From: a virus
Reading direction: 5' to 3' (one strand)
Length of the DNA stretch: 44,160 bases
Virus record (IMG/VR): IMGVR_UViG_3300043749_000004
Span: 1 to 44,160 of that record
The notes under the pieces are model-generated. The model was not told the DNA's origin and searched no databases. It saw only the letters and a program-made list of their open reading frames with translations. The translations under genes and the position numbers were made by a program. Shown one piece after another: positions 4,032 through 28,798 of the stretch. The number at the start of each line of letters is the position of its first letter. Position 1 is the stretch's first letter.

Positions 4032-4481
4032 ATGATCAAGGTTCGCGCCATCAAGCCTGCTGACGTGATCCAGATCGGTGACAAGTTCTGGAACTACAAC
4101 GGAACCCGCGAGTTCACCGTCATGTCCGTGGTCTACGGGATCGACGCCAAGCGTCACTTCACCTACCAGGCCGAGAATGGCCAAATGCAGGTATCCAGTG
4201 AGGACAGCTTCCGCGAGTGCCTGTACATCAAGGTCAAGAACCAGCTGAAGCCTGGCGACGTGTTCCACTTCGAGACCTTGAAGTACTCGGACATCCTGTT
4301 CCTGTACGTCTCGGACAACTCCGTGATCCGTCTCGGTCAGGGCGCCAACAACAGCAGGTACTTCAACGTGATCAACCGCGCTACCCTGTCCTGCTACGTC
4401 AAGCAGGCCGGTGACAACGACTACAACAACATCGTGGTCCTGAAGAACATCAACATCGATTACAACGTCACCGTCTCCTGA
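4032..4481 (+). CDS. Early paralogue family member B, 149 aa
   Basis: It is closely similar to the next gene throughout: both share F(W/F)NY near residue 20, FT(V/I)(M/L)S, a DVFHFET motif near residue 85, F(L)LYVS, VIR(L/I)GQG, a NSRYF/NSRYY motif, ATLS-YV, and end YNVTVS. The fold looks beta-rich and soluble. Tandem duplication is the simplest origin. No catalytic motif is obvious and the function is unknown. Confidence 0.85.
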   Translation: MIKVRAIKPADVIQIGDKFWNYNGTREFTVMSVVYGIDAKRHFTYQAENGQMQVSSEDSFRECLYIKVKNQLKPGDVFHFETLKYSDILFLYVSDNSVIRLGQGANNSRYFNVINRATLSCYVKQAGDNDYNNIVVLKNINIDYNVTVS

Positions 4482-4555
4482 GTCATACTCGGCTGCACGT
4501 CTCGAACGTGCAGCCTTTGGATCACTCAGGATCCACCAGAGAAGAGGAGAAACAC
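4482..4555 (+). promoter_or_regulatory. Tandem-hairpin leader module
   Basis: GGCTGCACGT (4491-4500) pairs with ACGTGCAGCC (4506-4515) around CTCGA and is followed by TTT. TGGATC (4518-4523) pairs with GATCCA (4530-4535) around ACTCAG. Compared with the previous module, both strands of the second stem have changed while pairing is kept. AGAAGAGGAGAA precedes ATG 4556. Confidence 0.72.
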
Positions 4556-5002
4556 ATGGGCTACGTCAACGTTCCCACCTCCCAGCCCATCGCCGCTGGA
4601 GGCAAGTTCTTCAACTACGACGCGTCTGTCGAGTTCACCATTCTGTCCGAACTGTACAGTCTGGACGGGGACCGATACATCACGTATCAGGCCAAGGGCG
4701 GACCGGTGCTCTGCGCCGACGAGAACGACCTTCGCCGCAGCCTGTACGTCAAGCAGAAGCACGACCTGAAGGAGGGCGACGTGTTCCACTTCGAGACCGT
4801 GCCCTATTCGGACATCAAGTTCCTGTACGTCTCGGAGAACAAGGTGATCCGCATCGGTCAGGGCTCGAAAAACTCTCGCTACTACACCGAGGTCAACTCC
4901 GCAACCCTGTCCAGCTATGTCAATCAGTGCGGATACAACAACTATGACAGCATCGTGATCCTGAAGAACATCACCACCGAGTACAACGTCACCGTCTCCT
5001 GA
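4556..5002 (+). CDS. Early paralogue family member C, 148 aa
   Basis: It is a close paralogue of the gene at 4032, with the DVFHFET, KFLYVSEN, VIRIGQGSKNSRYY and TEYNVTVS landmarks conserved in order. I chose ATG 4556 because of the GAAGAGGAGAA site; the frame is open upstream to 4508 only through the leader hairpins. Dose increase or diverged binding specificity are both possible reasons for the duplication. The function is unknown. Confidence 0.85.
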   Translation: MGYVNVPTSQPIAAGGKFFNYDASVEFTILSELYSLDGDRYITYQAKGGPVLCADENDLRRSLYVKQKHDLKEGDVFHFETVPYSDIKFLYVSENKVIRIGQGSKNSRYYTEVNSATLSSYVNQCGYNNYDSIVILKNITTEYNVTVS

Positions 5003-5080
5003 GTCATACTCATCTGCACATCCTTCGGGATGTGCAGGTTTTGGATCACTCAGGATCCACCAGAGAAGAGGAGAAACACA
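5003..5080 (+). promoter_or_regulatory. Tandem-hairpin leader module
   Basis: CTGCACATCC (5014-5023) pairs with GGATGTGCAG (5028-5037) around a TTCG tetraloop, followed by TTTT. TGGATC (5042-5047) pairs with GATCCA (5054-5059). AGAAGAGGAGAA precedes GTG 5081. This copy looks most like an intrinsic terminator. Confidence 0.75.
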
Positions 5081-6360: not shown

Positions 6361-6819
6361 ATGTGCGAGAACTGCGACGCCGAGTTCGGTCAGACCGTGT
6401 TCCACATGGTCATCGGCGTGGACGACAAGCCGAACCTCATGGTTCACACGCGGTTCGTGGAGGACGGTCTCAGTGAGATCTTCGGCGGTGTCACCTACGG
6501 TGACCGTGTCGCCGCGACCGGGGTGTTCCCGGTGGGCAAGCTCGTGTTCGACTCCATGAACCACTTCAACGAGTGGTGCGAGGAGAACCCGGGCGACCCG
6601 CGAATCGAGACCATGATGGCGAGCCACGTCAAGGCTCACCGTTCGATCGAGGAGGCTGCCGCGTACAACACCTTCCTCGCGGGCGTCATCAATGGCGCCG
6701 AGGACCGTTCCCGGTGGGAGGTGTCCATGGACACCTATGACTTCCTGGCCGAGATGTACGACGACGTCGATGACCCGATCGCCCACCTGGCCAGCCTGGT
6801 CAGGGGCGACGAGAACTAA
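6361..6819 (+). CDS. Unknown acidic protein with N-terminal Cys pair, 152 aa
   Basis: The protein starts MCENCDAEFG; the CxxC close to the N-terminus may hold a metal, although no second Cys pair is visible (one more Cys occurs near residue 72). The rest is acidic and mixed alpha/beta. ATG 6361 follows AGAAGAGGAGAGAAAC. It precedes the branched RNA element. No family is recognised. Confidence 0.8.
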   Translation: MCENCDAEFGQTVFHMVIGVDDKPNLMVHTRFVEDGLSEIFGGVTYGDRVAATGVFPVGKLVFDSMNHFNEWCEENPGDPRIETMMASHVKAHRSIEEAAAYNTFLAGVINGAEDRSRWEVSMDTYDFLAEMYDDVDDPIAHLASLVRGDEN

Positions 6820-6855
6820 GCTTCACATGCTGTAGCTGGCACTACGGTGAGTGAT

Positions 6856-7013
6856 GGTGGTGCACATGGGGGAAAGTCAGTAACCCAACTCTAGAAATAG
6901 ACTCCTGGGCAAACGCCCTGACTTTCCCTTCCCGCGAGACGACGGTGGCTCCATTGTCGAGGGAGACCCTACTGGTTCGGGGTTCATGTGCACTGCCACC
7001 TGTCACCGTGGCA
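6856..7013 (+). ncRNA. Multi-branched structured RNA element in leader of next gene
   Basis: An outer nine-pair helix joins 6860-6868 (GTGCACATG side) to 6985-6993. Inside are two domains. The first is an 11-pair helix 6870-6880/6918-6928 enclosing a hairpin with a GAAA tetraloop (TCTA 6890-6893 with TAGA 6898-6901) and a second hairpin GGGC/GCCC (6907-6918). The second has an eight-pair hairpin 6940-6947/6952-6959 and a short stem 6966-6969/6980-6983. A separate hairpin TGCCAC/GTGGCA (6994-7013) follows, then GAAGAGGAGAG before GTG 7042. It replaces the usual two-hairpin module. Riboregulator, riboswitch-like leader or a processed small RNA are possible. Confidence 0.65.
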
Positions 7014-7041
7014 GGATGTTCGACCGAAGAGGAGAGAAACA

Positions 7042-7638
7042 GTGAGCAACATGTACACCTACGAGATCTCCGACGTCATCGACAGTGCCCTCTCGCTGGT
7101 CCAGAACAAGGGTTCCGACTACCGCTACACCGATGAGCCCCTGTACCAGGACAAGAGGCGCTGCGTCAACGTCCTCTTCGACTACGAGGACAAGTACAAC
7201 GACGCCAAGGGTGGGGACTACCCGTCCGCCAGCACCAGCGTCCGCGACGTCTCCAAGCTGGACGGAAAGAAGAACTTCCGTCCCGGCTGCCTGGTCGGCT
7301 CGATCGTCCTGGACATCACCGATGCCGACATGGGCTGGTTCTTCCAGCATGGCCGCAATGGTAGAGCTTCGAGTGAAACCATAGGTGATCTCCAGGTGGA
7401 CGGCTTGGGTACGTTCTCCCCGCTCGCCGGGGTTTTCCTTCGGGAACTCCAGTCCATCCAGGACGCTGGCAAGACGTGGGGTGAGGCCTATGCGTCCGCC
7501 GTCCAGCACACTCTTCGGGTGTACTGCACCTCGGCGGACGCATACTACAAGCCCACCAAGGGCGAGATCCGGTGGATCCAGTACACGTTCGGTGACCACC
7601 AGGGTCCGAAGGAGGACAGTGCCGCCGTCAGCAGCTGA
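7042..7638 (+). CDS. Unknown early protein, 198 aa
   Basis: GTG 7042 follows GAAGAGGAGAGAAACA; an in-frame ATG lies three codons later. The protein is soluble, acidic and aromatic-rich in places (SDYRYTDEPLYQDKRR, WFFQHGRNGR, ADAYYKPTKG). It is the only gene led by the branched RNA element, so its expression is probably specially controlled. It overlaps the following gene. I do not recognise the family. Confidence 0.8.
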   Translation: MSNMYTYEISDVIDSALSLVQNKGSDYRYTDEPLYQDKRRCVNVLFDYEDKYNDAKGGDYPSASTSVRDVSKLDGKKNFRPGCLVGSIVLDITDADMGWFFQHGRNGRASSETIGDLQVDGLGTFSPLAGVFLRELQSIQDAGKTWGEAYASAVQHTLRVYCTSADAYYKPTKGEIRWIQYTFGDHQGPKEDSAAVSS

Positions 7639-27763: not shown

Positions 27764-27875
27764 GACATACTCCCTAAGTTAAACGAACCCCACAGCGGAC
27801 GCCGGGGAGCGTCCGCCTCGCTGGTTCTTCCGGTCTTGATTACAAGGAACCCCGGCCGGTCGATGGGTTTCCTGG
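27764..27875. other. Spacer with strong hairpin between scaffold and tRNA genes
   Basis: GCGGACGC (27795-27802) pairs with GCGTCCGC (27809-27816), and outer GAACC/GGTTC sequences may extend the stem. No U-run follows on either strand. A processing stem for the tRNA-bearing transcript is possible. Confidence 0.45.
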
Positions 27876-27947
27876 AGCCTCACGCGGGAATCGAACCCGC
27901 ATTCTCAGTTTGGAAGACTGATGTACTTGCCGTTGTACGAGTAAGGC
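27876..27947 (-). tRNA. tRNA-Gly (UCC)
   Basis: The acceptor GCCTTAC pairs with GTGAGGC and ends in U73, as expected for glycine. The anticodon loop is CTTCCAA (anticodon TCC), with a perfect TCAGT/ACTGA stem. The T loop is TTCGATT. No CCA is encoded. It is the last tRNA in the direction of transcription. Confidence 0.9.
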
Positions 27948-27952
27948 AAAGC

Positions 27953-27999
27953 GCGGCCCACCTTGCGGTGCTTGACTCTGTGGTCAACGTTGTGGCCGC
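27953..27999 (-). ncRNA. Small three-way-junction RNA inside the tRNA array
   Basis: An outer stem GCGGCC/GGCCGC (27999-27994 with 27958-27953) encloses two hairpins: TTGAC/GTCAA (27987-27983, 27976-27972) and CACC-GCAA-GGTG (27970-27959), the latter a GNRA tetraloop. The 47-base unit has no anticodon or T loop. It lies between the leucine and glycine tRNAs and may be a processed small RNA or a spacer that guides tRNA maturation. Confidence 0.55.
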
Positions 28000-28002
28000 T
28001 CG

Positions 28003-28075
28003 TAGTTCACCAGAGATTCGAACTCTGACTGGCTGGTTCCTAAGACCAGTGCCTCTACCGTTGGGCTAGTGAACC
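28003..28075 (-). tRNA. tRNA with UAG anticodon (nominal Leu), short variable loop
   Basis: The acceptor GGTTCAC pairs with GTGAACT (G1-U72). The anticodon loop is CTTAGGA, so 34-36 read TAG (codon CUA). D stem GCC/GGC and T loop TTCGAAT are normal. Bacterial leucine tRNAs have a long variable arm, but here only five bases (CCAGT) occur, so the charging identity is uncertain. No CCA is encoded. Confidence 0.75.
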
Positions 28076-28079
28076 GTGA

Positions 28080-28160
28080 TGTAGTTGGTGGGAAGTCGAA
28101 TCCCAATCGACACACTTGGCTGGCGTGCTGTTCTGCCTCTGTTGAACTACCGATTCCTAC
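28080..28160 (-). pseudogene. Degenerate tRNA-Gly(GCC)-like gene
   Basis: D arm (GTTC/GAAC) and T arm (TGGGA-TTCGACT-TCCCA) are tRNA-like, and the anticodon loop reads CAGCCAA (GCC). However, U33 is replaced by A, an extra base precedes the anticodon stem, and the acceptor (GTAGGAATCGG against CCAACTAC) pairs only with a large internal loop. It looks like a decayed tRNA, or a tRNA mimic. Confidence 0.55.
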
Positions 28161-28163
28161 ACG

Positions 28164-28234
28164 TGGAGTAACAGGGAATCGAACCCTGATCTGCTGCTTG
28201 CAAAACAGCCGTGCTTCCGTTGCACCAAAACCCC
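28164..28234 (-). tRNA. tRNA-Ala (UGC)
   Basis: The anticodon loop TTTGCAA reads TGC. The acceptor GGGGTTT against TTACTCC contains G3-U70, the alanine identity pair, but has two U-U mismatches at its inner end. T loop is TTCGATT. No CCA is encoded. Confidence 0.82.
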
Positions 28235-28239
28235 AGATG

Positions 28240-28258
28240 GGCCGCCCATAAGGCGGCC
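28240..28258. other. Perfect hairpin in tRNA spacer
   Basis: GGCCGCC (28240-28246) pairs with GGCGGCC (28252-28258) around CATAA. It separates the alanine and asparagine tRNAs and may be a processing signal. Confidence 0.6.
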
Positions 28259-28260
28259 AG

Positions 28261-28332
28261 CTGACTAAGTAGGGTTCGAACCTACGACCTTGGAGTTAAC
28301 AGCTCCCTGCTCTGCCACTGAGCTACTAGTCA
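28261..28332 (-). tRNA. tRNA-Asn (GUU)
   Basis: The acceptor TGACTAG pairs with TTAGTCA with G73. The anticodon loop CTGTTAA reads GTT. The T loop is TTCGAAC. One mismatch is present at the outer end of the anticodon stem. Confidence 0.88.
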
Positions 28333-28411
28333 TTGTCATTGGCAACCAACCGCCGAACAGTGCACCCCGTTGTTATGGCTCTTCACCACACCATTGTGCA
28401 CCTTCCCCCTG
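28333..28411 (-). other. Structured spacer between tRNA-Ile and tRNA-Asn
   Basis: No tRNA fits here. Two GTGCAC copies (28360-28365 and 28396-28401) can pair with each other, enclosing an ATGG/CCAT hairpin, and a small TTGG/CCAA stem lies at 28339-28349. It may be a second small RNA or a tRNA remnant. Confidence 0.4.
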
Positions 28412-28483
28412 TTTGCATGAAGGGAGTCGAACCCTCGTCTACAGCGTATCAGGCTGTTGCACTAACCGTTGTGCTACATGCAA
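28412..28483 (-). tRNA. tRNA-Ile (GAU)
   Basis: The acceptor TTGCATG/CATGCAA is perfect with A73. The anticodon loop CTGATAC reads GAT and the ACAGC/GCTGT stem is perfect. The T loop is TTCGACT. Confidence 0.9.
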
Positions 28484-28485
28484 AG

Positions 28486-28566
28486 CGGAAGGCAAAGGAG
28501 TCGAACCCTTAGGTAACCCTAGCCTGGTTTTCAAGACCAGTTGCTCACCACTGAGCGCTACCCTCC
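28486..28566 (-). tRNA. tRNA-Ser (UGA)
   Basis: The anticodon loop CTTGAAA reads TGA on a perfect CTGGT/ACCAG stem. A long variable region (AGGGTTACCT core) gives the class II shape expected for serine. The acceptor GGAGGGT pairs with GCCTTCC with G73. Confidence 0.9.
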
Positions 28567-28576
28567 AAGATAATTG

Positions 28577-28649
28577 CACATCCTCTAGGGATCGAACCTA
28601 GACCAATGGTTTTGGAGACCATCGTGCTGCCCTATTACACCAAGGACGT
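28577..28649 (-). tRNA. tRNA-Trp (CCA)
   Basis: The acceptor ACGTCCT/AGGATGT pairs fully with G73, as usual for tryptophan. The anticodon loop CTCCAAA reads CCA with a perfect ATGGT/ACCAT stem. It ends one base from the methionine tRNA. Confidence 0.92.
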
Positions 28650-28650
28650 A

Positions 28651-28723
28651 TAGCGGAGACGGGATTCGAACCCGTGACCATACGGCTTATGAAACCGCTG
28701 TTCTACCGCTGAACTACTCCGCA
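28651..28723 (-). tRNA. tRNA-Met (CAU)
   Basis: The anticodon loop TTCATAA reads CAT. The acceptor TGCGGAG pairs with CTCCGCT except for T1-T72, with A73. The T loop is TTCGAAT. It is probably an elongator; an Ile (lysidine) identity cannot be excluded without a modification test. Confidence 0.88.
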
Positions 28724-28724
28724 G

Positions 28725-28798
28725 TCTGGATGGATGGATTCGAACCACCGACCAATCGCTTCCAAGGCGATTACGCTGACCACTGCGCTACATCCAGA
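28725..28798 (-). tRNA. tRNA-Pro (UGG)
   Basis: The acceptor CTGGATG/CATCCAG is perfect with A73. The anticodon loop CTTGGAA reads TGG with stem ATCGC/GCGAT. The T loop is TTCGAAT. It is the first tRNA in the transcript. Confidence 0.9.

Follow-up and report, generated by a model that had tools for sequence, protein, structure and literature searches.

An undescribed family of covarying structured RNAs is present between early genes of Beephvirinae and related phages. The window, that is the whole stretch of DNA analysed here (a virus contig of 44,160 bases), holds a predicted multi-branched RNA in the corresponding slot. Judged from its sequence, this element is either a remodelled member of the family or a replacement core set in the same frame. 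The finding on the family is stronger than that on the window element itself.

A structured RNA in an early intergenic gap of the window

The TerL protein of the window is 65-67% identical to that of Streptomyces cluster BF podoviruses (Beephvirinae). Early genes lie on the plus strand, ahead of structural genes on the opposite strand. Nine tRNA genes are clustered on the minus strand at 27873-28797, and BF phages likewise carry such a cluster. The element is situated between two early genes. Upstream, the ORF list gives a gene of 152 aa (6361-6819, plus strand), for which a PHROGs search returned no family; its stop codon is at 6817-6819 and the first hairpin begins 4 nt later. The downstream gene (7042-7638, plus strand, GTG start) encodes a 198-aa protein that is a distant member of phrog_572 (PHROGs match, E 1.7e-7), a group of unknown function, with FlowerPower gp74 as a homologue. 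A purine-rich ribosome binding site, GAAGAGGAGAGA (7026-7037, plus strand), precedes this gene and is common to the window's other leaders. Searches of IMG/VR with the 198-aa, 152-aa and exonuclease proteins of the window gave no matches.

The structured unit occupies the gap between these two genes from about 6823 to 7015. An earlier note, made from the sequence alone, had described a multi-branched RNA at 6856-7013 in place of the usual leader. The element is confirmed at this position, but the structured unit is longer than these limits. It does take the place of the usual leader, which amounts to 222 nt here compared with 80-90 nt for the window's other early leaders. These consist of a 10-bp hairpin of the UCUCGA type and a second, short one, followed by the ribosome site GAAGAGGAGA. 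The first leader of the early operon (1735-1839) is a further unusual structured case, with three strong hairpins closed by GGUUG/CAACC and the ribosome site directly after them. Elsewhere in the window, positions 4200-4499 and 4721-5020 form a 300-nt direct repeat, 78% identical, that spans a gene end plus leader and suggests duplicated gene-plus-leader cassettes.

The core of the element (6855-6998) is predicted to fold into a four-way junction, in which a 14-pair closing helix and three arms meet with zero unpaired junction bases. All parts are given on the plus strand. The closing helix P1 pairs 6855-6868, a strand that contains GUGCACA like BF phages, with 6985-6998. Its inner part is formed by nine perfect pairs between GUGCACAUG (6860-6868) and CAUGUGCAC (6985-6993). 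Arm P2 (6869-6929) comprises an 11-pair helix, GGGAAAGUCAG with CUGACUUUCCC, whose strands lie within 6869-6880 and 6918-6929, and two hairpins, UCUA-GAAA-UAGA at 6890-6901 and GGGC-AAAC-GCCC at 6907-6918, the latter having one base in common with the 11-pair helix. Arm P3 (6930-6964) is built from 6930-6933/6961-6964 followed by 6938-6942/6954-6958 and holds AUUGUC. Arm P4 (6965-6984) is a 6-pair hairpin, GACCCU/GGGGUU (6965-6970/6979-6984), with the loop ACUGGUUC. The 11-pair helix and the nine-pair closing helix of the earlier note are exactly present. The hairpins that it described as capped by GAAA are correct for one case (6890-6901), whereas the neighbour (6907-6918) has AAAC.

The minimum free energy was -69.6 kcal/mol compared with a shuffled mean of -54 (z -3.78), and none of 200 shuffles was equally stable. 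An independent shuffle run gave a z of -3.57, with 1 of 1000 equally stable, and a perfect 11-bp helix arose in 9 of 1000 shuffles. The closing helix had a mean pair probability of 0.98 and the long inner helix one of 0.97. The view of a compact multi-branched RNA is supported by this stability (z about -3.7) and by the four-way junction.

Two hairpins adjoin the closing helix. The 5' flanking hairpin (a:b) covers 6823-6854 with a mean pair probability of 0.81-0.83, and the 3' flanking hairpin (c:d) has seven pairs at 6999-7015. The 3' strand of the former contains CGGUGA (6845-6850), which could alternatively lengthen the closing helix, and the 5' strand of the latter is also a strand of a possible P1 extension. 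Overlapping complementary strands, CCG-CGG-CCG-CGG, surround the core. When P1 is extended outward (6845-6854/6999-7008), 21 of 24 positions are paired, with the mismatches G.G, U.U and A.C; this extension was spotted post hoc and competes with the flanking hairpins. No U-run, as would mark an intrinsic terminator, follows any hairpin in the sequence of 6823-7015.

A covarying RNA family in Beephvirinae and related phages

The phrog_572 gene of BF phages is preceded by a gap of 160-240 nt that is filled by a structured RNA. Manuel and RosePharie share this slot with the window. Loci of relatives in IMG/VR were collected via metallophosphoesterase and DnaB helicase searches, and a covariance model of 29 pairs, R1, was built from 17 sequences. 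Searching with R1 revealed 47 distinct members. Structured RNA was found in the matching slot of all 29 deposited BF records and of tens of IMG/VR contigs, and most matches in the BF records had no annotated feature. At most one R1 copy is present per genome (28 of 38 genomes match), second hits being the antisense shadow of the same RNA.

The family core consists of P1 with about 18 pairs, P2, P3 and a nested hairpin P4 with a loop that is often CUUGUCA, and a short UUGUUCGC-like joint precedes the closure of P1. P2 is a short stem of changing sequence that carries the cap GAA-N4/5-AGUA in 46 of 47 members, which we take to be the signature of a loop-E (G-bulged) motif. The 7-nt loop of P4, CUUGUCA or similar, could be recognised in about half of the family. 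In BF phages, the loops of P2 (AUAAG) and P4 (CUUGU) are complementary; the P2 loop is nearly invariant and gives no covariation test, and we do not claim a contact between them.

Two-sided changes were observed at each of the 29 pairs, with 354 double-change cells compared with 110 in shuffles (0/500). The covariation score was 0.659, against 0.183 in shuffled alignments and 0.124 or less with the partner strand slid; fitting the alignment to the model biases it towards the structure, but both controls lie far off and the changes in P1 and P2 are visible in the raw sequences. Among paired positions we counted 71 G.U and 15 A.C combinations. This excess of G.U argues for an RNA on the coding strand and disfavours a cruciform or origin acting at the DNA level. 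A hidden coding sequence is argued against by indels together with the covariation. Two mismatches in P1 are near-fixed (U.U and A.C, each in 43 of 47 members) and the pairs adjacent to them covary, a sign that something reads the helix. At the foot of P1, several base-pair types occur among the members.

Rfam contained no match for the relatives, and a loose threshold yielded just weak hits resembling miRNA precursors and other chance matches. In the literature searched, no description of an intergenic RNA of BF phages was found. An exact-pattern search of bacterial genome contigs gave matches no more frequent than chance for 15 fixed bases in 257 billion. Repeated pattern matches in one Clostridium lie within a long repeated sequence, putatively a group II intron. 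A search with R1 in 198 genomes of one class, reached via an Actinomycetes MAG, returned nothing, which is a weak negative.

The RNA is tied to a slot rather than to one gene

Family members always lie after a stop codon and before a ribosome site; the stop codon is mostly 26-45 nt upstream and the start codon mostly 18-34 nt downstream. Genes from at least five unrelated families follow the RNA: 24 cases fall in the phrog_572 group (non-R1 relatives included), and the other groups count 10, 9, 4 and 2. The upstream gene is variable too. Microbacterium and Curtobacterium phages possess phrog_572 without the leader gap. Because the neighbouring genes vary and phages with a leaderless phrog_572 exist, we assign the RNA to its slot or transcript and not to any single gene. 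A rule linking the RNA to phrog_572 was rejected on the grounds of these leaderless phages and of the many members that stand before other genes. In some relatives of the window (G004 and G006, corresponding to loci L331 and L332, and the genome of locus L066), phrog_572 is present in 2 to 4 copies per genome, each with its own leader or none.

In most members, a GC-rich hairpin with a UNCG-type loop lies 5' of the RNA and a small hairpin 3' of it, and the foot of P1 has strands in common with both. In 37 of 47 members, the 30 nt that follow hold an exact complement to the last four bases of P1. Strand exchange is possible through these common strands, which may form either a switch or just hairpins stacked in a row. 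The ribosome site lies beyond the end of the downstream hairpin and is left uncovered. In three loci (L043, L044 and L056), a second long hairpin, with UCUCUCUCC, separates the RNA from the next gene.

The window element compared with the family and with ordinary leaders

The window shares with the family the slot (between early genes on the same strand, before the phrog_572 gene or in the equivalent position), a GUGCACA/UGUGCAC closing helix and both flanking hairpins. The likeness to the R1 RNA of Beephvirinae extends over slot, strand, operon, long closing helix, strand-sharing flanks and a multi-branched core. However, the four-way junction of the window is perfect and includes an 11-bp arm, and R1 found no match at 6855-6998 with filters off and E values up to 10. 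A direct search of phages for DNA similar to the window element was equally negative. Directly after P1, GAAAGUCAGUA (6872-6882, GAA-AGUC-AGUA) resembles the GAA-N4/5-AGUA hairpin of the family, a likeness that was spotted post hoc. In contrast to the family, this loop-E hairpin exists in the window just as a competing sequence, its bases being paired in the predicted 11-bp helix with which it is mutually exclusive. Similarly, AUUGUC (6953-6958), which compares with the P4 loop of R1, is partly paired in another hairpin. The earlier note had named conservation in relatives as a test, and the outcome is split: a strongly covarying RNA does stand in the slot, but the window fold has no match to the covariance model and its core is unique among the sequences found.

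Cores that differ from the usual one were also seen in L026, L031, L067, L330 and L334. L067, among the closest relatives of the window (helicase 64%), has the CUGCC/GGCAG 3' hairpin in common with it and reaches a weak R1 score of 34 bits, apparently on P1. The same P1 frame with different cores was noticed in L026, L031, L045, L330 and L334; L026, L031 and L334 keep a CUAAGG...CCGAUG-like element, and their loop-E hairpin is replaced.

We further compared the element with ordinary leaders. The 42 other leaders of seven BF phages form imperfect stems with a median of 14 bp, in which U.U is the commonest mismatch. At L066, which is among the closest relatives of the window (helicase 64%), the same frame carries a loop of just 7 nt. 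Since ordinary leaders are imperfect stems too and L066 has the same frame with a 7-nt loop, the special RNA is best seen as an ordinary leader stem with its loop turned into a folded domain.

In BF phages, the leader right after the phrog_572 gene is a hairpin of 17-32 bp whose succession of mismatches is nearly alike in several of them (L010:8056-8179, minus strand; L006:8872-8989; L002:8038-8139; L003:8398-8502; L004:7841-7942). Its loop is rich in UCUCUCCCCC, the complement of the ribosome sites (GGGGAGAGA) that the same phages carry. From this complementarity, the hairpin is a possible anti-Shine-Dalgarno RNA.

Discussion

We tentatively favour, by analogy with other phages, the explanation that the element is an intergenic processing or stability stem of the early mRNA, of the RNase III type, whose loop has been replaced by a folded domain. 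The element would fold within the polycistronic early transcript. Its frame would be the leader stem of the early operon, long and imperfect, just past a stop codon and just ahead of a ribosome site, and a multi-branched RNA domain would have taken the place of the apical loop. In most relatives this domain would be one conserved family (long P1, loop-E hairpin P2 and P3 with nested P4); in the window it would have been divergently remodelled or replaced to give the four-way junction. The P1 stems may serve host RNase III as sites where the message is processed and stabilised, like the intergenic stems of T7 early mRNA. Cleavage within P1 would part the neighbouring messages, giving an upstream and a downstream mRNA that each end in a hairpin there, and it could free the folded core, a small stable RNA whose release we consider possible. 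As for sites of the RNase III type, a polycistronic mRNA here contains an imperfect stem roughly two turns long: the extended P1, recognised post hoc, is paired at 21 of 24 positions and lies in a row of same-strand early genes. The length and mismatches of P1 suit RNase III only by analogy.

The RNase III stems of T7 are simple hairpins without a multi-branched core. The window stem, in contrast, bears such a core, and its cleavage is what we infer. Both are long imperfect intergenic stems in a polycistronic early phage transcript (T7 R1.1 and others; PMC4858673). Inverted repeats of as yet unknown function also stand ahead of many phage genes in the ESAS of cluster K mycobacteriophages, which are 17-bp imperfect repeats with a spacer of mostly 4-13 bp beside a fixed start sequence (PMC3203893); unlike the window element, they have no multi-branched core. 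The core of the RNA family probably has a role of its own, because the conserved loop-E hairpin (46 of 47 members) is more than a processing site needs.

Such a role could be exerted in trans. The RNA would then be an independent small RNA in the operon, serving as a decoy, as a binder of host RNA polymerase or RNase, or in anti-defence, and its fast change would reflect an arms race with the host. The single copy per genome, the conserved core next to variable genes and the swapped cores of L026, L031, L067, L330 and the window in an unchanged frame are consistent with this. However, the RNA always fills the intergenic gap and is leader-like, with its own 3' hairpin beside the ribosome site, and we regard a trans-acting RNA as somewhat unlikely. 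Doubtful, too, is a regulator in cis of the riboswitch or RNA-switch kind, whose core would sense a ligand, a protein or temperature and whose strands, shared by 5' hairpin, P1 and 3' hairpin, would control how the next gene is translated. Some riboswitches and leader RNAs contain loop-E motifs. With such RNAs of Rfam the element has in common a P1-closed junction, a competing downstream pairing and its place ahead of a gene, and the overlapping CCG-CGG-CCG-CGG strands, the complement to the 3' strand of P1 (37/47), the several types of pair at the P1 foot and the loop-E hairpin (46/47) all speak for a switch. On the other hand, the 3' hairpin ends short of the ribosome site, and fixed mismatches are unusual for the P1 of a riboswitch. 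A search of Rfam, which the earlier note had proposed, gave zero matches for the window at the gathering threshold and at E 10. A gene-specific riboswitch is weakened in particular because the downstream gene of the family differs between unrelated families; instead of the constant association with genes of one pathway that marks a metabolite riboswitch, R1 stands before at least five of them.

The compact junction and the abutting hairpins just upstream of the ribosome site would also fit an exonuclease-resistant or purely stabilising structure that shields the downstream mRNA, for instance from RNase J, a model that we hold to be very improbable. The earlier note had thought of a riboswitch-like regulator, an exonuclease-resistant RNA or a small RNA, and this interpretation is partly supported. 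Finally, the window fold might be a decaying or chance elaboration without a function of its own, the leader stem alone being of importance. Its core was found in no other sequence, L066 manages without a core, and in the close relatives L331 and L332 the phrog_572 genes are preceded by ordinary leaders or by no leader at all. Yet the z of about -3.7, the perfect 11-bp helix and the strongly selected core that relatives retain in the same slot argue against decay, which we judge improbable.

Returning to the processing stem with a folded domain in its loop, a wider proposal can be made, although we deem it unlikely. The RNAs would constitute a new class of phage RNA, in which a processing stem of the early mRNA carries, in its apical loop, a domain that is cut out in infection and acts in trans. 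The stem would be conserved and the core remodelled or swapped between lineages, the window carrying one swapped core.

The RNA is present in all 29 deposited BF phages, covaries at every modelled pair, and is neither annotated as RNA nor contained in Rfam. Laboratory strains of Streptomyces served for the isolation of phages such as Manuel, FlowerPower and Immanuel3, so that its function is directly testable. A core that proves to be released or to act in trans would represent a phage regulatory or anti-host RNA of a new type.
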